This document shows positions 2,080-50,253 of a DNA stretch of 50,253 bases, in pieces. The DNA lies in the IMG/VR virus record IMGVR_UViG_3300022209_000002, positions 1-50,253 of that record. One strand, written 5' to 3'. This DNA is from a virus. Every line of letters begins with the position of its first letter. The first letter of the stretch is position 1. Position numbers and translations under genes: made by a program. The notes beneath the pieces were generated by a model. That model was not told the DNA's origin and made no database searches. It saw only the letters and a list, made by a program, of their open reading frames with translations.

Positions 2080-2629
2080 GCTCACGGACGTTTATCGGTT
2101 CCGTGATGCACCACCAGAGGTGGTCGCGCGGTTCCGAACCATCGACCCCCGCGCCGAGCTCGTCTATGTCGGCCGGGGGAAATGGTGGGTTGGGCTGGTC
2201 TACGCTGACATCCCGCTGATCCACCAGGGGCGGCGTGAGCTCATCGCGATCAAGGCGTCGGGTGGGGCGACCTGGCCTGCTATCCGACTATCCAGTTTGA
2301 AGGCCCAAGGGTTCCGGAAGGTCCGGTTGTGGGACATCGATCCGCGGACAGGTGAATGGGTGGAGCTCCAGCGGTTCGACCAGGATCCGCCGTGGACCCG
2401 ATTGATCGAACGGTTTCGCCTCCAGGATTGGGTGTACCGCCACTATCCTAGCTCACCCGCTGCGTGGCGGCGGTTGATGCTCAAACACGAGTTAGGTCAC
2501 ACTGACGACCGGCTCCGAGAGGCACTCAGTCGGACACTTGATCAAGTCCAGCAGTCGACGCGATCGGGAATCATTGCGAAGCTCCGAGGTCGCAAGGTGT
2601 TCGGTTGGCGTCGGAGGCTGGTGAGCTGA
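2066..2629 (+). CDS. Phage structural-region protein, unknown
   Basis: 187 residues from the GTG at 2066, which overlaps the end of the previous gene by 14 bases. The longer open frame back to 1922 lies over the disordered protein and is unlikely to be used. The middle has a compact strand-rich part (GKWWVGLVYADIP, FRKVRLWDIDPRTGEW) and the end is helical and basic (RGRKVFGWRRRL). No known family recognised. It sits among head-completion genes, so a virion or head-assembly role is plausible. Confidence 0.65.
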   Translation: MDASRLTDVYRFRDAPPEVVARFRTIDPRAELVYVGRGKWWVGLVYADIPLIHQGRRELIAIKASGGATWPAIRLSSLKAQGFRKVRLWDIDPRTGEWVELQRFDQDPPWTRLIERFRLQDWVYRHYPSSPAAWRRLMLKHELGHTDDRLREALSRTLDQVQQSTRSGIIAKLRGRKVFGWRRRLVS

Positions 2630-2642
2630 AAGGGTGAACACG

Positions 2643-3038
2643 ATGCCCCACTTTGGACCCAGGAAAGTCGGCGCGGCTCGCTTCAAGGCGAGCGCGCTCC
2701 ACGAGTCGAAGACGAAGAAGTTCGGCCCACGCAAGTTCGGTGTCCGCAAGGCCGCCGAGATGCAAGCGGCGCTCGATGCGGCCGAAGCGGAGGCTGTCGC
2801 GGCCGCCCAGATCCCGGTCAATGGGAACGGCGAACCCGCCACGACCAGCCTAGCACAGCTACGAGAAGCGCTGAGCGACAACCCGGCCGTGGCCGATGAG
2901 TTGTACGCGCTCGAGCTGGCCCGTGCTGGTGGTGCCCGCAAGGGCGCGGTCAAAATGTTTCTGTCGACCGAGCTTGCGCGGCCGGGTGGCGCGCGACCGG
3001 ACCGACAAGAGGAGCTCGAGGCGCTACTCACGGACTAG
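2643..3038 (+). CDS. Small head-region protein with FGPRK repeats
   Basis: 131 residues from the ATG at 2643, with an AAAGGG ribosome site 7 bases upstream; a GTG at 2634 is the alternative. The start carries two copies of an FGPRK motif (HFGPRKVG, KFGPRKFG) separated by a basic linker, then an Ala/Glu-rich helix and a charged tail. The repeated basic motif suggests binding to DNA or to a repeating protein surface. No family recognised. Confidence 0.65.
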   Translation: MPHFGPRKVGAARFKASALHESKTKKFGPRKFGVRKAAEMQAALDAAEAEAVAAAQIPVNGNGEPATTSLAQLREALSDNPAVADELYALELARAGGARKGAVKMFLSTELARPGGARPDRQEELEALLTD

Positions 3039-17513: not shown

Positions 17514-17716
17514 TCCGCCTCCACTTTCTCCACGATCCTGTGGACCGACTCCTCCACCACCTTCGCCAGCTGCATCCGGGTCTCGTGGTGGAGGTAGTCC
17601 CGGAGCCGGTCGATCAACAGCTCGGACTTCTCGATCCGCTCGAGCAGCATCGGGATCAGGTCGTTCATTACCAGCTCCAGCTGCTCGTGGTCCGTCATGG
17701 GTTCGTGCGCGGTCAT
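17405..17716 (-). CDS. Helical coiled-coil early protein
   Basis: 103 residues, starting in a 4-base ATGA overlap with the initiator gene. Nearly the whole chain is predicted-helix in character with heptad-like hydrophobics (LLERIEKSELLIDRLRDYL, VVEESVHRIVEKVEAEW). It has no catalytic motif. By position directly after the initiator it could be a helicase-loader-like partner or a scaffold for the replisome, but nothing in the sequence proves this. Confidence 0.65.
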   Translation of the reverse strand: MTAHEPMTDHEQLELVMNDLIPMLLERIEKSELLIDRLRDYLHHETRMQLAKVVEESVHRIVEKVEAEWTGAFLPELRRTIRADVEAHLAQHVEARPAKLSDP

Positions 17717-18654
17717 TCGGCATCCTCCGCTCCTGTTGGGATGTAGCCGTGCTCGGCCAGGCGGGCGAGGATCTTATCCACGGCCTTCCGTTTCTTGGTG
17801 CCGGCTGCGGCCAGCTTCTCGACGGTCCCGCCTCCCTCTTTGCGTTTGAAGATGTGTTCGAGCTCATGGTACTCGCGGCCATCCTGCTGGTTGTGGTCCG
17901 CGTGGTGGAAGGCCCCCTCGACGGCCAGCAGGCAGTCTTCCAGCCCGTAAATCTGGAGGTAGCGCCTGAGTCGGGTCTTCCGGTCTTCCGTGAGCACAAC
18001 CCGCTTGCCGTTCTTCTTGGCACGCCAGGACCAGAAGGCGAAGACGGTGCGGGCTTCCCACAGCAGCCGGTGGCGATCGAACACGTCGGGCTCGAGGTCG
18101 TGCAGGGTCTCATTCACCCACTGGGCGGTCTCTTTGGCTGGCACGAGCGCTGTTCCGTTCGCAGAACGGGACAAACTCTCACCCTTTTTAGTAGGTGGAG
18201 ATCCTAACTGGGAATCCTTCTTACTTACTGCATCTGCTTCTACATCTGCTTCTGCTTCTACCGTGACATCGTTACGTGTCACGCTTGGTTGTGACATGTC
18301 ACGCTGCTGGCGACGAAAGCGGCTCTGCCGCTGGGCGTTCATAATCTGTTTGCGGGACCGCATCTCTCGGTATTTCTCGTAGTTGAGTAGGAGCCAGCCA
18401 CCCTCGACCTTCTCGACGCGCCGGCCGCCGTAGCTCTGGTCTTTGCTGTCGATGTCGGGGGCCACAAGGATCTCGAGCGCGCGCTTGCACTCCTCGAGAT
18501 TGACACGGGCCCGGTGGGCCAGGCCGGCCGTCGATGCCTCGACAATGCCGTACTCGTTGGCCATCGCAAGCATCGTAATCCAGACGATCCGGGTGCCGAT
18601 GTCTTCCATCCAGACGGACGAATCGAGGATCGAGCCGAACAGCTTCACATACAT
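17713..18654 (-). CDS. Replication initiator (DnaD/lambda O-like)
   Basis: 313 residues. Residues 1-100 form a winged-helix DNA-binding domain of phage replisome-organiser type (KLFGSILDSSVW, ARVNLEECKRALEIL, GGWLLLNYEKYREM). Residues about 115-165 are a low-complexity linker. The last part (VFAFWSWRAKKNGKRVV to YHELEHIFK) resembles the conserved C-terminal domain of phage initiators that contact the host helicase loader. It would melt the origin and recruit the host replisome. The DNA for the linker is AT-rich and carries repeats, matching the lambda arrangement where the origin lies inside gene O. A repeat of the same kind stands just upstream, suggesting self-control. Confidence 0.78.
   Translation of the reverse strand: MYVKLFGSILDSSVWMEDIGTRIVWITMLAMANEYGIVEASTAGLAHRARVNLEECKRALEILVAPDIDSKDQSYGGRRVEKVEGGWLLLNYEKYREMRSRKQIMNAQRQSRFRRQQRDMSQPSVTRNDVTVEAEADVEADAVSKKDSQLGSPPTKKGESLSRSANGTALVPAKETAQWVNETLHDLEPDVFDRHRLLWEARTVFAFWSWRAKKNGKRVVLTEDRKTRLRRYLQIYGLEDCLLAVEGAFHHADHNQQDGREYHELEHIFKRKEGGGTVEKLAAAGTKKRKAVDKILARLAEHGYIPTGAEDAE
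18171..18302. other. Candidate replication origin inside initiator gene
   Basis: Bases 18181-18260 are AT-rich by local standards (34 of 80 are G/C by my count). Next to them lie GTGACA-8-TGTCAC (18263-18282) and the perfect palindrome GTGACATGTCAC (18291-18302). The first matches the operator-like element at 18680-18712 almost base for base. A binding-site cluster beside an AT-rich stretch within the initiator gene is the known lambda-type origin design. Function is inferred. Confidence 0.6.
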
Positions 18655-18679: not shown

Positions 18680-18717
18680 GGGACCGTGACAATGCGTTAC
18701 TGTCACGGCCCCGTCAA
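18680..18717 (-). promoter_or_regulatory. Candidate promoter-operator for initiator gene
   Basis: Between recT and the initiator gene, reading on the minus strand: TTGACG (18717-18712), a 17-base spacer, CATTGT (18694-18689, a weak -10). An inverted repeat with arms containing GTGACA and TGTCAC (18686-18691 and 18701-18706, spacer 9) covers the spacer and -10. The same element recurs in the candidate origin. It could equally act as a stem-loop in RNA. Promoter call is weak; the inverted repeat is certain. Confidence 0.5.
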
Positions 18718-24525: not shown

Positions 24526-25136
24526 TGGAGGATCCCTACCAACTGCTCGAGCTGGCTGCTTGTCAGCTGGACGTGATCGAGCCGCCAGCTCTTGCCGTCG
24601 TAGCTGGTCGCGCGATAGATCCCCGGCAGGTACAGCGTCACGCCCTCGCCGTTGCCGTTCTGACTGATCGATCCGCCCAGCTTGGCCACTAACCGTTCGG
24701 CTTCCTGCTGGCGGGTGTCGATCTCTTCCCGGATCTCGCGCGCTCGAGTCACCATCAGCGCAAAGACGCGGCTGTATTCGGGCCAGAAGCGCCGCGCGAT
24801 GTCGGCCGCAATCTTCTCGGGTGTCTTCGTCAGACTCACCGTAATGCTGAAATCGTGCTGGCGGTTCTGGTTGGGCATTTCGTCCCGCGGTAGGATGTCC
24901 CGCGGTAGGAACGCGCAGGTGCCGCGCGGGTCGTCTGGCCACAGTCCGTCAATGTGCAGCCGGCCCTTGGCTCGGGTTGTGTTCATCCAGACGGCTCGGC
25001 CGTCGGCGTGGGTCAGTCGGGCGCTCCATTGGTTGCGGACCTCTTCCTCGTAGCGCTCGTATCGCAACGCCAGCCGGCTTGCTCTGGCGATCGCGCTTGC
25101 GAGCGCTGGTAGGTTCAGCTCTGCGGGCTGCGTCAT
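24522..25136 (-). CDS. Early protein, unknown; first gene after promoter P1
   Basis: 204 residues from ATG 25136 with a GAGGAG site; about 40 bases of leader separate it from the promoter at 25.2 kb. It has a helical start, a strand-rich middle and a helical region (EIREEIDTRQQEAERLVAKL), then short strands. A 13-base tandem repeat in the gene gives the residues LPRDILPRD. No family recognised. As first gene of a strong promoter it is probably abundant early in infection and could be an annealing, nucleotide or host-takeover protein. Confidence 0.7.
   Translation of the reverse strand: MTQPAELNLPALASAIARASRLALRYERYEEEVRNQWSARLTHADGRAVWMNTTRAKGRLHIDGLWPDDPRGTCAFLPRDILPRDEMPNQNRQHDFSITVSLTKTPEKIAADIARRFWPEYSRVFALMVTRAREIREEIDTRQQEAERLVAKLGGSISQNGNGEGVTLYLPGIYRATSYDGKSWRLDHVQLTSSQLEQLVGILQ
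24883..24910. repeat. Short tandem repeat inside a coding region
   Basis: TCCCGCGGTAGGA occurs at 24883-24895 and 24898-24910, period 15, in frame, giving a repeated LPRD peptide in the gene at 24522-25136. It may be a recent slip duplication. Confidence 0.6.
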
Positions 25137-27724: not shown

Positions 27725-28129
27725 GTGACCGGTAAGCTCACGGTAGGGCGCACTCCCAACTTCATACGCAAGCTGTGCGCGGAGCGCTTTCACGACGCGC
27801 TGCCGCTGCTTGACGCGATTATCTGGGGCGGGCTGGACTTGACCCCGGAAGCGGCTGAACGGCTCGGCCTGGGGGATCCTGGGGAGCCGGGTGGGCCTCG
27901 AGAGCGGGCGCAGCTGGTGGCCTCGATCAAGGAACGGCTCTCGGCGATGGAGCTGCTTGCGCGGGTCGGTGTTGGGTTCCGGACGGAGAGCCAGGCCGAT
28001 CGACGGGGCGACGTTGGCGCCGGCGTGATCGCGCTGCCCGACTGGGATGATGAGGTAGGCGAATATGAGGTGATCGAGCCGGGGGATCCGGCAGCGTTGC
28101 CACGTGGGCAAGCCGAACCTGGCGGGTGA
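27725..28129 (+). CDS. Possible small terminase-like (TerS) protein
   Basis: 134 residues from GTG 27725 (TTG 27719 is the alternative). The pattern FIRKLCAERFHDALPLLDAI, then an Ala/Arg helix ending SAMELLARVGVG, resembles the helical core of some small terminase subunits and related phage proteins; the acidic C-terminal end (DWDDEVGEYEVIEP) is also seen in such proteins. The large subunit lies 6 kb away. The 10-base repeat array follows about 210 bases after its stop. No HTH is seen. The call is an informed guess. Confidence 0.5.
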   Translation: MTGKLTVGRTPNFIRKLCAERFHDALPLLDAIIWGGLDLTPEAAERLGLGDPGEPGGPRERAQLVASIKERLSAMELLARVGVGFRTESQADRRGDVGAGVIALPDWDDEVGEYEVIEPGDPAALPRGQAEPGG

Positions 28130-28325
28130 GCTCGAGTCAGCCGGCGAGCTCGAGCCGTTGGTCCGGCAGCTCGTGAGCCAGTCAGCCGGTGCCTCGAGCC
28201 CGGGAGAGCTGGCCTATCGGCGAGCGCTGGCGGCGGCCTACCAGAAAGGGCGGGTGCGGACTATGCGCGACGTGGCGGAGCTCGTGAATCGAGCGCTCCA
28301 GGATGCAATAGGCCGGCTGCTGTGA
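28104..28325 (+). CDS. Small helical protein, unknown
   Basis: 73 residues from GTG 28104, overlapping the previous gene by 26 bases; no clear ribosome site, so coupling is likely. It repeats GELE early, then is helical (AYRRALAAAYQKGRVRTMRD, VAELVNRALQDAIGRLL). No family recognised. The repeat array starts just after its stop. Confidence 0.55.
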   Translation: MGKPNLAGELESAGELEPLVRQLVSQSAGASSPGELAYRRALAAAYQKGRVRTMRDVAELVNRALQDAIGRLL

Positions 28326-28340
28326 CGCCGGCGATCGGTG

Positions 28341-28415
28341 GTGCGTCGTGGTGCAACTTGGTGCAACGGTACGTGACGGAGCGTGACCTAGCGTGACGGA
28401 GCGTGACGGTCACGC
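28341..28415. repeat. Seven-unit 10-bp-period repeat array
   Basis: In exact 10-base steps: GTGCGTCGTG, GTGCAACTTG, GTGCAACGGT, ACGTGACGGA, GCGTGACCTA, GCGTGACGGA, GCGTGACGGT. The last unit continues into a perfect 15-bp palindrome GCGTGACGGTCACGC (28401-28415). The array fills the gap before the next gene and runs into its first codons. One site per helical turn is what an oligomeric DNA-binding protein would need: small terminase (packaging site), initiator or repressor. CGTGAC also occurs in the candidate origin. Confidence 0.8.
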
Positions 28416-28713
28416 CAGCCAGGGGCAACGGCCGGGCGCGGTCGACTGCCGGGGCCCGCATTGCTCGAGCCGGTTCGTCTGGGTGGACTGCCTGAAACGG
28501 GACGGCCAGCTGGGGCGGGTGCCGCTCGAGCTCGAGCCGTGGTCTGGGATCCGGCCAACCGGGTCGCTGCGTGGCCTGTTCGTGCTGCTCGAGCCCGGGC
28601 GGGTGCGGGCGGCGCGGCGTGGCGACACGGGCCCGTTCTATCGGTCCCACTTCGCGAGCTGTCCGGATGCCGCGCGGTTCCGCGGTGCTGGCCGGCAGCG
28701 GGCCCGGAGCTGA
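28393..28713 (+). CDS. Small Cys/His protein, zinc-ribbon-like
   Basis: 106 residues from GTG 28393, the first start after an in-frame stop. CRGPHCSSRFVWVDC near the start and HFASCPDAARFR near the end match a widespread phage family with a C-x-x-x-C pair, a Trp/Val strand, a Pro-rich middle (VPLELEPWSG) and an ending H-x-A-x-CP-x-A. It probably binds one zinc. The start codon lies inside the repeat array, so a protein bound there would also block its translation start region in DNA. Confidence 0.65.
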   Translation: MTERDGHASQGQRPGAVDCRGPHCSSRFVWVDCLKRDGQLGRVPLELEPWSGIRPTGSLRGLFVLLEPGRVRAARRGDTGPFYRSHFASCPDAARFRGAGRQRARS

Positions 28714-28717
28714 GCCG

Positions 28718-29017
28718 GTGCTCTTCGGCGAGCTGCTACCGGGCAACTGGGCCCGACTGGTGGGAGTGCTCGAGCGGGAAGGGCTCGAGCTCACGGTCCA
28801 GCCGGCGCGCGACGTGGTGACGATCGGGACGCCGGACGGCTCGGTGGTCTCGGTCGACGGTGCGGCGCTGCGGGTGGCAGCTCGGCACGGGGACGGGGCG
28901 GTGCTGGCGGTGCTGGACCGGGTGGCTGACTACCTCGAGGCGGCGCGGGATGCGGTCCAGCGGTGCGAGCGGGCCGGCCAGCTGGCGGCGGTCCGGGACG
29001 GCGGGGGCGAGGCGTGA
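28718..29017 (+). CDS. Small protein, unknown
   Basis: 99 residues from GTG 28718, with a GGAG site 8 bases upstream. An alpha/beta start (LFGELLPGNWARLVGVLERE, VVTIGTPDGSVVSVDG) and a helical end (VLDRVADYLEAARDAVQRC). Base composition here is very GC-rich. It ends in a GTGA overlap with the next gene. No family recognised. Confidence 0.6.
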   Translation: MLFGELLPGNWARLVGVLEREGLELTVQPARDVVTIGTPDGSVVSVDGAALRVAARHGDGAVLAVLDRVADYLEAARDAVQRCERAGQLAAVRDGGGEA

Positions 29018-29355
29018 GCGGGCAGCGGGAGCTGGTTGGGCGGGTTGCTCGAGCGGTAGTTGCCGGCATGGCCCGGTACGGGATGGACGTGGTTGGGCGG
29101 TACAGCCGGGAGTTGGTGAGCCCGGAGCTCGTGGTAACGGCGGCGCTCCTGGAGTGGGACCGGCTCGAGCCGTTGGGCCCGTTGGGTCCACCGCTCACGT
29201 GTTCGCTCGAGCAGCCCGGTCTGCTGTGCGGGCCGGCCCGGGCGGTGGGTGGGTCGCTCTCGTGCCTCGAGTCGGGGCACCACCGCGACTGCTACTATCG
29301 CCGGCATCCACGGGGCACGATGCCTCCAACACTACCGGAAGGGGTGACGACATGA
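29014..29355 (+). CDS. Small protein, unknown, Cys-containing
   Basis: 113 residues from GTG 29014 in a 4-base overlap. A helical first half (RELVGRVARAVVAGMARYGMD) is followed by a Pro/Gly/Cys part (CSLEQPGLLC, CLESGHHRDCYYRRHPRG). The cysteines and histidines might bind zinc. It ends in an ATGA overlap with the secreted-protein gene. No family recognised. Confidence 0.58.
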   Translation: MSGQRELVGRVARAVVAGMARYGMDVVGRYSRELVSPELVVTAALLEWDRLEPLGPLGPPLTCSLEQPGLLCGPARAVGGSLSCLESGHHRDCYYRRHPRGTMPPTLPEGVTT

Positions 29356-30050
29356 AGACGATGGAGCTGGTGAAGGCGGCGACGCTGGTAGCCGGGCTCG
29401 TGCTGGTGGCGGGCGTGGTCTCGCGGTGCACGACGGAGGCGGGCGCGTCGGCGGTCCCACCGTCGGCCGTGCGGATCCGGATGGTGGAGCTATGGCAGGC
29501 GCCCGACTCGGCTCGGTTCGTGGTCACGTGGGCGATGCCGGACACGTTGACGCCGGGGCAGCTACCGCTGGCCGGCTTCCGGGTCGAGCTGTGGGACCAG
29601 GTAGGCGACACGGTGTTGGCCAGCCAGGCGGCCGGGCCGGCGCTGCGGTCGGACACGGTACGGCTGGCCTGGATTGCGCCGGGTGACACGCTGGTGCTGC
29701 GGGCGCAGGTGGTGGCGCAGGACACGCGGGGCACGGAGTCGGCGCCCGGGCAGTCGGTGCCGTGGGTCTGGCGGCGGGGGATTGTGGCGCCATCCATCCC
29801 GGGGCCGGTCGAGCTGGTGCCGATCGATTCGACGGTGAGCCTGGCCCGGGTGGACGTGCGGCCGAACGTGGTGGTGGTGGCGCCGGGCGAGCTGGTCCAG
29901 TTCTGCGCGATCGGCGTGCTGGCGGATTCGACCAGCGGGGTGCTGGTGGACTTTCGGCGGCCGGATGGCACGGTCGGCACGCTGGACGCGGCGACTCGGC
30001 TGTATTGCGAGGATGTGTACCAGGTCTGGCTGACGGAGCGGGCGGCCTGA
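29352..30050 (+). CDS. Secreted Fn3-like protein
   Basis: 232 residues. The start is a signal peptide: MELVK, hydrophobic residues about 9-24, and a likely cleavage after ASA (residue 34). C26 follows VSR, which does not fit a lipobox. Residues about 40-140 resemble a fibronectin-III sandwich (ARFVVTWAMPD, AGFRVELWDQVGD, VLRAQVVAQDTRG). A second strand-rich domain has two Cys (QFCAIGV, LYCEDVYQVWL). Exported proteins encoded away from the lysis genes often act in superinfection exclusion or on the cell surface; that is inference. Confidence 0.68.
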   Translation: MKTMELVKAATLVAGLVLVAGVVSRCTTEAGASAVPPSAVRIRMVELWQAPDSARFVVTWAMPDTLTPGQLPLAGFRVELWDQVGDTVLASQAAGPALRSDTVRLAWIAPGDTLVLRAQVVAQDTRGTESAPGQSVPWVWRRGIVAPSIPGPVELVPIDSTVSLARVDVRPNVVVVAPGELVQFCAIGVLADSTSGVLVDFRRPDGTVGTLDAATRLYCEDVYQVWLTERAA

Positions 30051-30063
30051 GCTGGACCGGCAG

Positions 30064-30282
30064 ATGGCGCTGTGGTACGTGGAGGGGTTCGACCGGGTGG
30101 CCTGGCTGCTCCGGGGGCAGGTGCTGGCCCCGCGGGCGTATGCGTTGTGGCAGGACGCCCGGGCGGTGCTCCGACGGACGCAGCCCTACTGGACGCCAGA
30201 GCGCAGAGCGGTTATAGGGGGTGGGGGCAGGCGGTCGATCCAGGCACTTCGGCCTGGCGATCTACGAGATCCAAGGGGGTAG
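30064..30282 (+). CDS. Small protein, unknown (uncertain)
   Basis: 72 residues. The first 45 look protein-like (WYVEGFDRVAWLLRGQVL, AYALWQDARAVLRRTQPYW), the rest basic and Gly/Arg-rich. No good ribosome site. It fills the space between two better genes on the same strand. It may be real, but evidence is modest. Confidence 0.42.
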   Translation: MALWYVEGFDRVAWLLRGQVLAPRAYALWQDARAVLRRTQPYWTPERRAVIGGGGRRSIQALRPGDLRDPRG

Positions 30283-30337
30283 GACTCGCAAGGGCACCTG
30301 TTCCCGCCTCTCACTTTTCTCGGAGGTAAGAGCCTTC

Positions 30338-30610
30338 ATGGACCACACAACGAGACCGGCCGATCTGACGCAGGGCGATCGGCGCGACATGACGGTGCGG
30401 CTGGACGTGATGTTCAAGCTGCACCAGCTGCCCGATGGCCACACCAACCAGGCGAAGCAGCTCCGGGCGATTCGGACGATGGGGCGCGAGCTGTGCCAGG
30501 TGATCGCCGACAACACGCCGCGCTGCGCCGACCAGTCGACGGCGTTCCGGACGGTACGCGAGGCGGTGTTCTGGGCGACGGAGGCGATTTTACGGGAGGG
30601 CGCCATCTGA
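30338..30610 (+). CDS. Acb2/Tad1-type hairpin protein, putative anti-CBASS/Thoeris sponge
   Basis: 90 residues from ATG 30338 with a GGAGGT site; the longer frame upstream is not supported. It resembles the helical Acb2/Tad1 hairpin family: a short start, FKLHQLPDGHTNQAKQL, then LCQVIADNTPRCADQSTAF and EAVFWATEAIL. In that family the matching parts read roughly LF-x-Y-H-x-P, ANCPPS-x-E-x-S-x-AL and MWANAAIAR. Acb2 proteins bind and sequester the cyclic nucleotides that trigger CBASS and Thoeris defence. Here the usual CP is TP, so the match is moderate. It stands with other small genes typical of anti-defence regions. Confidence 0.6.
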   Translation: MDHTTRPADLTQGDRRDMTVRLDVMFKLHQLPDGHTNQAKQLRAIRTMGRELCQVIADNTPRCADQSTAFRTVREAVFWATEAILREGAI

Positions 30611-30876
30611 TGCTGTTGGAGTTCGTCGGGGGCCCGTTGGATGGGCGGCGGGACATCTTCTCGCCACCCGAGGGCTCCACGTTCATCACGTACACGACGG
30701 ACCCGCAGCCGGTGACGACGATGCTGGAGCCGCAGGCGGTTGCCGAGCTCGTGCCGGTCAGGGAGCATCGGTATGCGCGCCGCAAGATGGCCGCATCTGG
30801 TCCGGAGTGGCGCGGCAAGACGGGGTACTGGCAAGAGGTCTGGTGGGAGATTTGGCTTTACGAGGGGGTCACATGA
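30610..30876 (+). CDS. GGPLDG-family small protein
   Basis: 88 residues, sharing its first base with the previous stop (TGATG). The opening LLEFVGGPLDGRRDIF is a familiar start of a small phage family of unknown role; the end has an aromatic stretch (YWQEVWWEIWLYEG). It overlaps the next gene by 4 bases. Confidence 0.68.
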   Translation: MLLEFVGGPLDGRRDIFSPPEGSTFITYTTDPQPVTTMLEPQAVAELVPVREHRYARRKMAASGPEWRGKTGYWQEVWWEIWLYEGVT

Positions 30877-31259
30877 CCAAGCTACTGTTGCGCGTGGCGG
30901 CGTTTCTCGCCCGGCTGGCGCGCCCGCTCAAGGAGCTCTCGGACAGGCACAAGTGGGTGAATTGGGGGCTGGGCCATCCCGGGGGCTATCTGCTGCTGGG
31001 CCCGGTCCCGTTTGCGCTGGGGGCGTTGCTGCTGCGGTGGGTGGGGCTGGACGTGTCGCTCTGGTGGGCGGTGCTGTTCGGGTCGTGGTTCTCGTGGGGC
31101 CACTACATCTACCGCGAGCCCGAGGATTTCTTCTTCCGGATCATGGACTTGGAGCAGGATCCGGCGACGGTCTTGTGGCTCGAGGATCGGCTGATGGATA
31201 TACTCGGGCCAACGATCGTGCACGGCGCCGTCCAGGCGCTGCTGCTACTGGCGCGATGA
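30873..31259 (+). CDS. Membrane protein, unknown
   Basis: 128 residues, ATGA overlaps at both ends. Hydrophobic segments at about residues 38-58 (GYLLLGPVPFALGALLLRW) and 62-80 (LWWAVLFGSWFSWG) and a hydrophobic end (VHGAVQALLLLA). It could alter host membrane properties or belong to an exclusion system. No family recognised. Confidence 0.65.
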   Translation: MTKLLLRVAAFLARLARPLKELSDRHKWVNWGLGHPGGYLLLGPVPFALGALLLRWVGLDVSLWWAVLFGSWFSWGHYIYREPEDFFFRIMDLEQDPATVLWLEDRLMDILGPTIVHGAVQALLLLAR

Positions 31260-34461: not shown

Positions 34462-35988
34462 TTGAAGATCCGGCTCGAGGAGGGGCAGCGCCTCCTCTGG
34501 AAACCGATCTCCAAACGCCAAGTCGAGCTACTGCGGTCCACCGAAGATGAGGTGTTCTTCGGTGGCGCCAAGGGTGGCGCGAAGTCCGAAGCTGTTCTGA
34601 TGAAGCCGCTCAAGCAGGTCCATCTCGAGCGGTTCAAGGCACTCATCCTGCGGCAGACCTTCCCCGAAGTCCAGGAACTCATCGATCGATCGCATCGGTA
34701 CTACACCGACATGGCCGAGCGGCCGGTCTGGAACGGGTCGCTGAAACGGTGGACCTTCCCCAATCCCAATACCACGTTTGGCACGGGTGGCGGGATCATC
34801 CAATTCGGTCACTGTAAGACCAAAGAAGAGGTCAAGCTCTATCACGGGGGCGAGTGGGCACAGATCAATTACGATGAGGTCGCCGACGTGAAGGATGAGG
34901 CGGTCTGGATTGAGCTGATCGCCGAGAATCGGTGTCCAAACCCGCTCGTGCGCCGCCAGATGATTGGCACGGGCAACCCGGGGAAGCCGGGCCATCCGTG
35001 GTGTAAACGGCGCTTCATCGATCGCTGTGGCAAGCAGGGGCAAACGATCTATCGATACGACCTCAAATTGCCGAACGGCGACGTGGTGCAGCGCACGCGC
35101 CGTTTCATTCCCTCGAGAGTCACCGACAATCCGATCTACGCCAACGATCCCGTCTACATGGCCGCGCTCATGTCGCTCCCCGAAGTGCTGCGGCGCCAGC
35201 TGCTGTTCGGCGACTGGGATGCTGGCTTCGGCCTCGCGCTCGAGGAGCTCGATGAGATGGTGCACATCATCCCGAGCTTCAAGGTGCCCGCCAGTTGGAC
35301 CCAGTTCGGCGCGTTGGACTGGGGCTACCAGCACCCGTGGGTCTTTGGCCACTATGCGAGCGATGAAGACGGTCGGCTCTACAAGCTCAACACCATCCGG
35401 GGTCGGTGGATGAGCGATCGGCTGATTGCCGAACGGATCAACGACAAAGTGCCGGTCCAGGAGCTCTCCTACATTGTGGCGGGCCACGACTGCTGGGCCG
35501 AGGTCAAAGCCCGGAGCGACGACATCACGCCGTCAACTGCCGAACGGTTCCAGGCAGCCGGGATCATCCTGAGCCACGCCAACATCTCGCGCGCGCCCGG
35601 ACTCAGGAATTTCCGGGAGCAGGTCGCTTGGAAGGGAATCGACTCGGGCGGGACCGATGGCGAGCCGAATTTCTTCTGGATGGACACGCCGACCAACCGG
35701 AAAGCGTTCGAGGCGTGCGCCTCAATGGTTGTTGATCCGGACGACGCCGAAGACGCGCTCGGTGTGGATGCGAACCCTATGACGGGGGAAGGTGGGGACG
35801 ACGACTACGACGAGACCCGGTATGCGCTGGCCAGCCGGCCGCGCCGAGCGCAACCGACGTGGCAAGAGGGGGATGTACGGGCCTTTTCCAAGGCGGTCCT
35901 CGAGTACGAGATGGAGCTGGGTCGCCGCCACCGGTCTCGAGTCACCGTCCGGCGCCGTGGCGCCTACGTGTCGCTCGATGGCTACTAG
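34462..35988 (+). CDS. terL: Large terminase subunit
   Basis: 508 residues starting at TTG 34462, right after the previous stop; no better start precedes the ATPase core. It is the motor that cuts the concatemer and pumps DNA into the head. Walker A is GAKGGAKS (about residues 35-42, with Ala in place of the second-last Gly), Walker B is AQINYDE (about 133-139), followed by the coupling motif GTGNPG. The nuclease domain has GALDWGYQHPW and a late acidic cluster (DDDYDETRYAL). The Terminase_6-like layout is typical of headful-packaging phages. Confidence 0.9.
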   Translation: MKIRLEEGQRLLWKPISKRQVELLRSTEDEVFFGGAKGGAKSEAVLMKPLKQVHLERFKALILRQTFPEVQELIDRSHRYYTDMAERPVWNGSLKRWTFPNPNTTFGTGGGIIQFGHCKTKEEVKLYHGGEWAQINYDEVADVKDEAVWIELIAENRCPNPLVRRQMIGTGNPGKPGHPWCKRRFIDRCGKQGQTIYRYDLKLPNGDVVQRTRRFIPSRVTDNPIYANDPVYMAALMSLPEVLRRQLLFGDWDAGFGLALEELDEMVHIIPSFKVPASWTQFGALDWGYQHPWVFGHYASDEDGRLYKLNTIRGRWMSDRLIAERINDKVPVQELSYIVAGHDCWAEVKARSDDITPSTAERFQAAGIILSHANISRAPGLRNFREQVAWKGIDSGGTDGEPNFFWMDTPTNRKAFEACASMVVDPDDAEDALGVDANPMTGEGGDDDYDETRYALASRPRRAQPTWQEGDVRAFSKAVLEYEMELGRRHRSRVTVRRRGAYVSLDGY

Positions 35989-49503: not shown

Positions 49504-50253
49504 ATGAGGCTGACTACGAGCTTCAAGCGTTTCTTCATCGTGTGTGCGGTTGGGGCTGTCGCCTATGTGTTGGCGGGGCCGATCGCGTTGAGCGGTCTGC
49601 CAATCATCATGGGAGACATCACGACTACCGCCGATCTCGATGAAGCGCTCAAGATCATCTTCTCGGATCCGCTGATCAACAACATCGTCGAGGATTCAGA
49701 GTTCATGGACATCTTCAAGGTGGACATGAACGTGCAGGCCGACGACACGACGGGCGGGCGGTACATCGAGATGGGTCACTACTTCCGGCTTCCTGCTGGG
49801 GTGGGTGCCCGTGCCGAGAATGAGTACATCCCCGTGCCTGACGATCCGCGATTCGAGAATAGCCGGCTGTTCCTGCGCAAGTTGCAGGGCACAGTCGAAA
49901 TGACCGGCGACACCATGCGACGCGTCCGGTCAGACGAAGGTGCGTTCCTCAATTACATGGAACGGGCGTTGCCCGATCTGGTGACGCGCCTGGTCAACGA
50001 GATCGATCGGATGTACGTGTCCGACGGCTCGGGAGTAAAGGCCCGGATCGCCTCTATTTCGGGCTCAGGTGGGGTCTATACCGTGGTGGTCAACCGGACC
50101 TATGGCGTCGACGGCTTCACCGGCGCCCACCTGCAATTCCTGGAGGGGGAGCGGATCGTCGCTGACCCCGCCGCTGACGGCCAGAGCATCCGAGCCAACG
50201 GCACGATCAAGGGAGCGCAGGTCACGGACATGGATGAGGATGCCGGGTCGATC
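49504..50253 (+). CDS. Major capsid protein, 5' part (continues at 1-822)
   Basis: This is the amino-terminal part of the shell protein. Joined through the terminal repeat to bases 1-822 it makes a 478-residue protein, a normal size for a capsid protein. It follows the scaffold gene, as usual. The ATG at 49504 has a GAGGAG ribosome site at 49491-49496. Residues about 9-33 are strongly hydrophobic after KR and look like a signal or membrane segment, which is odd for a capsid protein. A second in-frame ATG at 49609 would remove it but has no ribosome site. The family call rests on gene order, length and recognisable capsid-like stretches such as GGRYIEMGHYFRLPAG and VEMTGDTMRRVRSDEG. The function is inferred, with good confidence. 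Confidence 0.85.
   Translation, partial: MRLTTSFKRFFIVCAVGAVAYVLAGPIALSGLPIIMGDITTTADLDEALKIIFSDPLINNIVEDSEFMDIFKVDMNVQADDTTGGRYIEMGHYFRLPAGVGARAENEYIPVPDDPRFENSRLFLRKLQGTVEMTGDTMRRVRSDEGAFLNYMERALPDLVTRLVNEIDRMYVSDGSGVKARIASISGSGGVYTVVVNRTYGVDGFTGAHLQFLEGERIVADPAADGQSIRANGTIKGAQVTDMDEDAGSI
50119..50253. repeat. Terminal direct repeat, right copy (circular overlap)
   Basis: Second copy of bases 1-135, 134 of 135 identical. It ends inside the major capsid gene at the same codon position as base 135, so joining the ends restores one reading frame. Confidence 0.95.

Follow-up and report, generated by a model that had tools for sequence, protein, structure and literature searches.

A 10-bp-phased array of initiator-type repeats in the late gene block of a Gemmatimonadota-linked phage is a candidate remote initiator-binding site

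Results

Genome organization and the genes around the array

The window analysed here is a whole virus record of 50,253 nucleotides. Its ends overlap (positions 1-135 and 50119-50253; 135 bp at 99.3% identity), so the record maps as a 50,118-bp circle. A near-identical contig from a Gemmatimonadota metagenome bin (L023; G009:C31, JAOTVV010000018.1) differs at 12 positions in the 8 kb compared and carries the initiator gene twice, at a spacing of 50,118 bp. Eight of these 12 mismatches fall at a variable spot, window positions 24882-24910, which holds a 15-bp tandem duplication (GTCCCGCGGTAGGAT). The bin, together with initiator homologues in three other genomes of the phylum, suggests a Gemmatimonadota host; in one Gemmatimonadota genome the homologue lies on a 2.27-Mb contig, a probable prophage.

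Most confidently called genes between about 16.4 and 27.6 kb run leftward and encode RusA, the initiator, RecT, a YqaJ/RecE exonuclease and a primase-like protein. From 27.7 kb onwards the genes run rightward, with TerS-like, 73-aa, zinc-ribbon, TerL (34462-35988), portal and major head protein genes. The array lies 0.65 kb inside this rightward (late) block, between the 73-aa and zinc-ribbon genes (Table 1). It had been described as filling the gap behind the TerS-like gene and covering the start of the next one. The predicted GTG start of the zinc-ribbon gene (28393) does fall within the array, but the array does not directly follow the TerS-like gene because the 73-aa gene intervenes. The TerS-like protein itself gave no PHROG match and no TerS-type Pfam match, and its structure model was weak (pLDDT 57). 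The surrounding region, 28000-31000, is a compositional outlier, where GC reaches 0.73 and GC skew 0.20, with T in excess over A. Across the window, GC skew tracked gene direction and gave no separate origin signal.

Table 1. Positions of the array, the putative origin and neighbouring genes in the window.
Feature	Position	Strand	Basis or remark
O-like replication initiator gene	17713..18654	-	PHROG match of homologues, model, alignments
Purine-rich, AT-rich putative unwinding element	18173..18261	-	GC
Iteron cluster in initiator gene, CAGCGTGACATGTCACAACCAAGCGTGACACGTAACGATGTCACG	18262..18307	-	Sequence and motif searches
Inverted pair CGTGACA-N9-TGTCACG, putative autoregulatory site	18685..18707	.	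About 30 bp upstream of initiator start
TerS-like gene, first of rightward block	27725..28129	+	TerS identity unproven
73-aa gene just upstream of array	28104..28325	+	Conserved in L003
Three GGTGC(AAC)NN units, 10-bp spacing	28340..28369	+	Read from sequence; on the flank expected for an unwinding element
Four CGTGAC units, exact 10-bp register; iterons predicted to bind the initiator	28370..28409	+	Sequence, periodicity, 8-mer AGCGTGAC common to in-gene origin
Zinc-ribbon-like gene, phrog_5984	28393..28713	+	Predicted GTG start inside array
Palindrome GCGTGAC-G-GTCACGC, head-to-head units with 1-nt centre	28401..28415	.	Same geometry as GTTGAC-G-GTCAAC in L182

Structure of the array

The array begins with three GGTGC-type units, GGTGCGTCGT at 28340, GGTGCAACTT at 28350 and GGTGCAACGG at 28360, whose GGTGCAAC occurs at no second place in the window. 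Four xxCGTGACxx units follow at 28370, 28380, 28390 and 28400 (cores 28372-77, 28382-87, 28392-97 and 28402-07), and an inverted GTCACG at 28409-14 ends the array. Variation among the four CGTGAC units is confined to linker positions, the CGTGAC core being constant. With five copies within 43 bp, this is the densest CGTGAC/GTCACG cluster of the window. The self-match at a lag of 10 reaches 39/55 over 55 bp, the window maximum, against maxima of 27-32 in 60 Markov simulations. The array noticed by the initial annotation is thus real and forms the strongest 10-bp periodicity in the window. The exact 10-base register claimed for it holds inside each unit type but breaks between the two types, where successive GTG cores stand 12 bp apart (28361 and 28373), a displacement of 2 bp. 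The two unit types may reflect two proteins, as the initial annotation suggested. Similarly, the terminal 15-mer GCGTGACGGTCACGC, reported as a perfect palindrome, has perfect 7-bp arms and one unpaired centre base. The array sequence is unchanged in L023.

GC content around the array is 0.64-0.80, and no AT-rich unwinding element was seen beside it in 70-bp GC windows covering 28.1-28.7 kb, which makes an autonomous origin at this place doubtful.

The array shares its core motif with a putative origin inside the initiator gene

The window initiator had only weak matches in PHROG and Pfam, none of them significant; its homologues L182 and L194 match PHROG 16167, 'replication initiation protein'. 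A viral scan with the initiator alone yielded no relatives. Its structure model was weak (pLDDT 51), and a fold search with this model returned non-significant matches only, several of them winged-helix proteins. The predicted architecture is a winged helix, a disordered linker whose coding sequence carries the putative origin, and a helical C-terminal part.

The initiator gene contains CAGCGTGACATGTCACAACCAAGCGTGACACGTAACGATGTCACGG, followed by a purine-rich stretch starting TAGAAGCAGAAGCAGATGTAGAAGCAGATGCAG. The lowest-GC 70 bp of the window (18173-18242, GC 0.41) adjoin this iteron cluster. Iterons inside the initiator gene and an adjacent AT-rich tract are both features of a lambda-type origin, and their presence together points to such an origin at about 18.2-18.3 kb. 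The 28.3-kb array lacks this in-gene arrangement, being 10 kb from the initiator gene and embedded in GC-rich DNA.

The CGTGAC/GTCACG core is common to the array, the in-gene cluster and the site upstream of the initiator gene. These three places are also the only ones in 50 kb that contain GTGAC-N1..12-GTCAC, with four matches against about one expected by chance; for the tighter GTGAC-N1..2-GTCAC, two were observed and 0.18 expected in the window. The 8-mer AGCGTGAC occurs six times in 50 kb, three times in the array, twice in the in-gene cluster and once elsewhere, and random 85-bp segments shared it in 0.9% of draws. The array (28.38 kb) lies 10.1 kb from the in-gene origin (18.28 kb). It thus resembles oriR of phage SPP1 in carrying the same core as the in-gene origin at a distance of kilobases in the same genome, and departs from it in having no AT-rich unwinding element beside the repeats.

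The motif changes together with the N-terminal domain of the initiator

Relatives were obtained by a TerL search, and further initiator homologues were taken from Gemmatimonadota genomes. The comparison of motif and initiator covers five initiators, a small set made up of the window protein and four homologues. L192, with 49% N-terminal identity to the window initiator, has four GTCACG copies in its gene in exact 10-bp register, and L193 (46% N-terminal identity) likewise uses GTCACG. L182, with a diverged N-terminus (28%), has GTTGAC/GTCAAC at both the in-gene and the upstream sites, and GTTAC/GTAAC is the motif of L194 (39%; its alignment contains a large insertion). The upstream site of L182, GTTGACgGTCAACagcGTCAACggttGTCAAC, is organised like the minus strand of the window array, gCGTGACcGTCACGctccGTCACGctagGTCACG/CGTGACcGTCACGctccGTCACGctagGTCACGctccGTCACG. 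In this set the motif follows the N-terminal domain of the initiator, and layout and motif alike behave as initiator sites should.

Motif clusters in the L182 genome are found only within the initiator gene and upstream of it. A remote second cluster was found neither in G002, nor in 40 kb of G013, nor in the 11.6-kb G309 contig, nor in the E. coli phage Tritos.

Phased CGTGAC arrays in other viral genes

Three CGTGAC copies at 10-bp spacing were found in at least 120 viral stretches, compared with 36 for the reversed control CAGTGC; the events counted are not independent, since many of the matching contigs are near-identical prophages, and the reversed control is not a clean null because at least one of its ORFs (L155) resembles an initiator by eye. 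Among the matches listed, 180 of 220 sites lay in ORFs, all with GTCACG in the gene sense, and 96 ORFs formed one cluster, whose representative matched PHROG 'replication initiation protein' at E 7e-254. The representative is annotated in phage Tritos (OV696610) as 'Replication protein, N-terminal phage replisome organiser'. In the genes of the cluster a purine tract follows the array, as in a lambda-type origin.

The reversed control matched 10-bp GCACTG/CAGTGC arrays in phage genes (L155, L158, L172 and L173), and other hexamer codes at 10-bp spacing may exist. The CGTGAC core was also seen in a second, different replication setting: AGCGTGAC arrays lie at or just past the 3' end of genes that look by eye like AAA-ATPase or primase-helicase genes (L012:692, L013:843, L014:10766, L015:4695 and L092:1858), with a G+C-rich hairpin near the array in L012, L013 and L014. 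A nucleotide search of phage records with the array region gave no match, nor did a phage and plasmid search with the array from L013. In the open-access literature we found no description of 10-bp GTCACG/CGTGAC iterons in phage initiators.

The array locus in TerL relatives and alternative readings

Among the TerL relatives, L003 keeps all three neighbouring genes, its TerS-like protein being 61% identical to that of the window; in L004 and L006 the set is less complete. None of these three relatives has the array at the corresponding position. Since no remote cluster was seen in G002, 40 kb of G013 or Tritos either, the array looks like a lineage-specific addition. Near the early/late junction of L006 there is an apparently unrelated initiator-like gene (2189-2740, minus strand; judged by eye), and a swap of the replication module in this lineage is possible.

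The array could be a transcriptional operator, from which the initiator or another regulator would repress the zinc-ribbon gene and the rightward genes downstream of it, or set their timing. Its position over the predicted start codon and near the beginning of the rightward block would fit such a role, as would the similar inverted pair upstream of the initiator gene, which autoregulation would predict. In L003, however, the same gene pair stands without an array, the zinc-ribbon homologue starting at the stop codon of the 73-aa gene in a start-stop overlap, and in the window the likely divergent promoter region is about 0.65 kb upstream of the array. An operator appears less likely than not, and is the strongest of the alternatives.

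It is improbable that the array is a non-functional tandem expansion that grew by slippage out of the GTGACG stop/start junction between the flanking genes. The seed CTGCTGTGACG is present at the same junction in L003, relative to which the array is an insertion, and tandem repeats with 10-bp units arise easily. Slippage nevertheless leaves unexplained the terminal inverted unit, the match to the in-gene origin and the match to the L182 layout, and it does not account for unit differences that spare CGTGAC and fall only at the linkers. The identity of the array in the near-identical L023 is modest evidence in the same direction.

Least probable of all is a packaging (pac/cos) site, a role that the initial annotation had listed among its candidates and in which the TerS-like protein would bind as a ring: a TerS ring would suit phased units, the array stands 210 bp from the end of the TerS-like gene, with TerL 6 kb farther downstream, as the SPP1 pac stands near its terminase small subunit gene, and the circular map (135-bp overlap; 50,118-bp repeat spacing in the related contig) is compatible with headful packaging, yet the SPP1 pac overlaps terS while another gene separates the array from a TerS-like gene of unproven identity, the array and the replication origin have their core in common, and the check on relatives that the annotation had called for showed that the array is not conserved with the TerS-like gene, its absence from three TerL relatives with comparable neighbours arguing against a conserved pac site.

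Discussion

Motif identity, register, a layout common to relatives and the fact that motif and initiator change together are established for the sites described here. We consider that the array is probably (at roughly three chances in four) a remote set of binding sites for the phage's own O-like initiator, a reading drawn from the sequence comparisons. A replication-related role, with a secondary origin among the candidates, had been proposed at the outset, and it gains support because the units match repeats both in the phage's own in-gene origin and in homologous initiator genes.

The main origin would be lambda-like and lie inside the initiator gene, at about 18.17-18.31 kb. The initiator would also occupy the array, with units presented once per helical turn and a head-to-head pair at the end, and the array may thereby serve as a second place of assembly that holds the initiator apart from the origin. 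Alternatively, initiator bound at the array may act as a roadblock that stalls the fork and aids the switch from theta replication to concatemer (sigma) synthesis. By analogy with SPP1 oriR we place such a second site or fork trap (second origin) first among the possible roles, at somewhat less than even odds, ahead of an operator on the rightward genes and, last, of an inert or titrating array.

The closest precedent for the preferred initiator-site reading is SPP1. Its gp38 binds direct repeats in gene 38 (oriL) and at oriR, about 13 kb away (PMC6316719), and fork collision with gp38 at oriR has been proposed to trigger the switch to concatemers, assisted by an exonuclease, an annealing protein and a RusA-type resolvase (PMC6316719, PMC5615212). 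As in SPP1, repeats in the initiator's own gene are accompanied here by a distant second set (10 kb), and the phage encodes an exonuclease, an annealing protein and a RusA-type resolvase; this two-site precedent, with the same kinds of companion protein, is why we read the array as a remote initiator-binding site. Two differences are that the AT-rich unwinding region of SPP1 oriR has no counterpart at the array, and that binding was measured in SPP1 and is predicted here.

The in-gene part of the system, with iterons and an AT-rich tract in mid-gene at 18.2-18.3 kb, is like the origin in gene O of lambda and Stx phages in the available portions of two accounts (PMC3985674, PMC7466680). These portions give four 19-bp iterons for lambda, as opposed to 6-bp cores at 10-bp spacing here, and they mention no further array at a distance. 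Among E. coli prophages such as Tritos, initiators of the PHROG 3729 type have in-gene GTCACG at 10-bp register followed by a purine tract; they are only marginally homologous to the window initiator (hhalign probability 2.3%, E 0.02) and, unlike the present case, their arrays are confined to the initiator gene, with no remote array in Tritos. Both an in-gene origin and a second remote site are thus known in phages, and what varies here is the 10-bp hexamer form, the lack of an unwinding element and the host lineage.

More generally, and with the odds against us, we conjecture that phages with O-like or replisome-organiser initiators share a hexamer code, with one core per helical turn, which changes with the N-terminal DNA-binding domain, and that in this phage the remote array, which lacks an unwinding element, uses the code as a dedicated fork trap or as an initiator reservoir that determines when the phage switches to late replication. 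If the initiator reading of the array is correct, the phage would add a further independent case of the SPP1-type two-site arrangement, in an uncultured Gemmatimonadota-linked lineage. The fork-trap role would be testable, the array being a compact insertion without a counterpart in the nearest relative. Hexamers phased at 10 bp in O-like genes would also provide a sequence rule by which the origins of many uncultured phages could be read.
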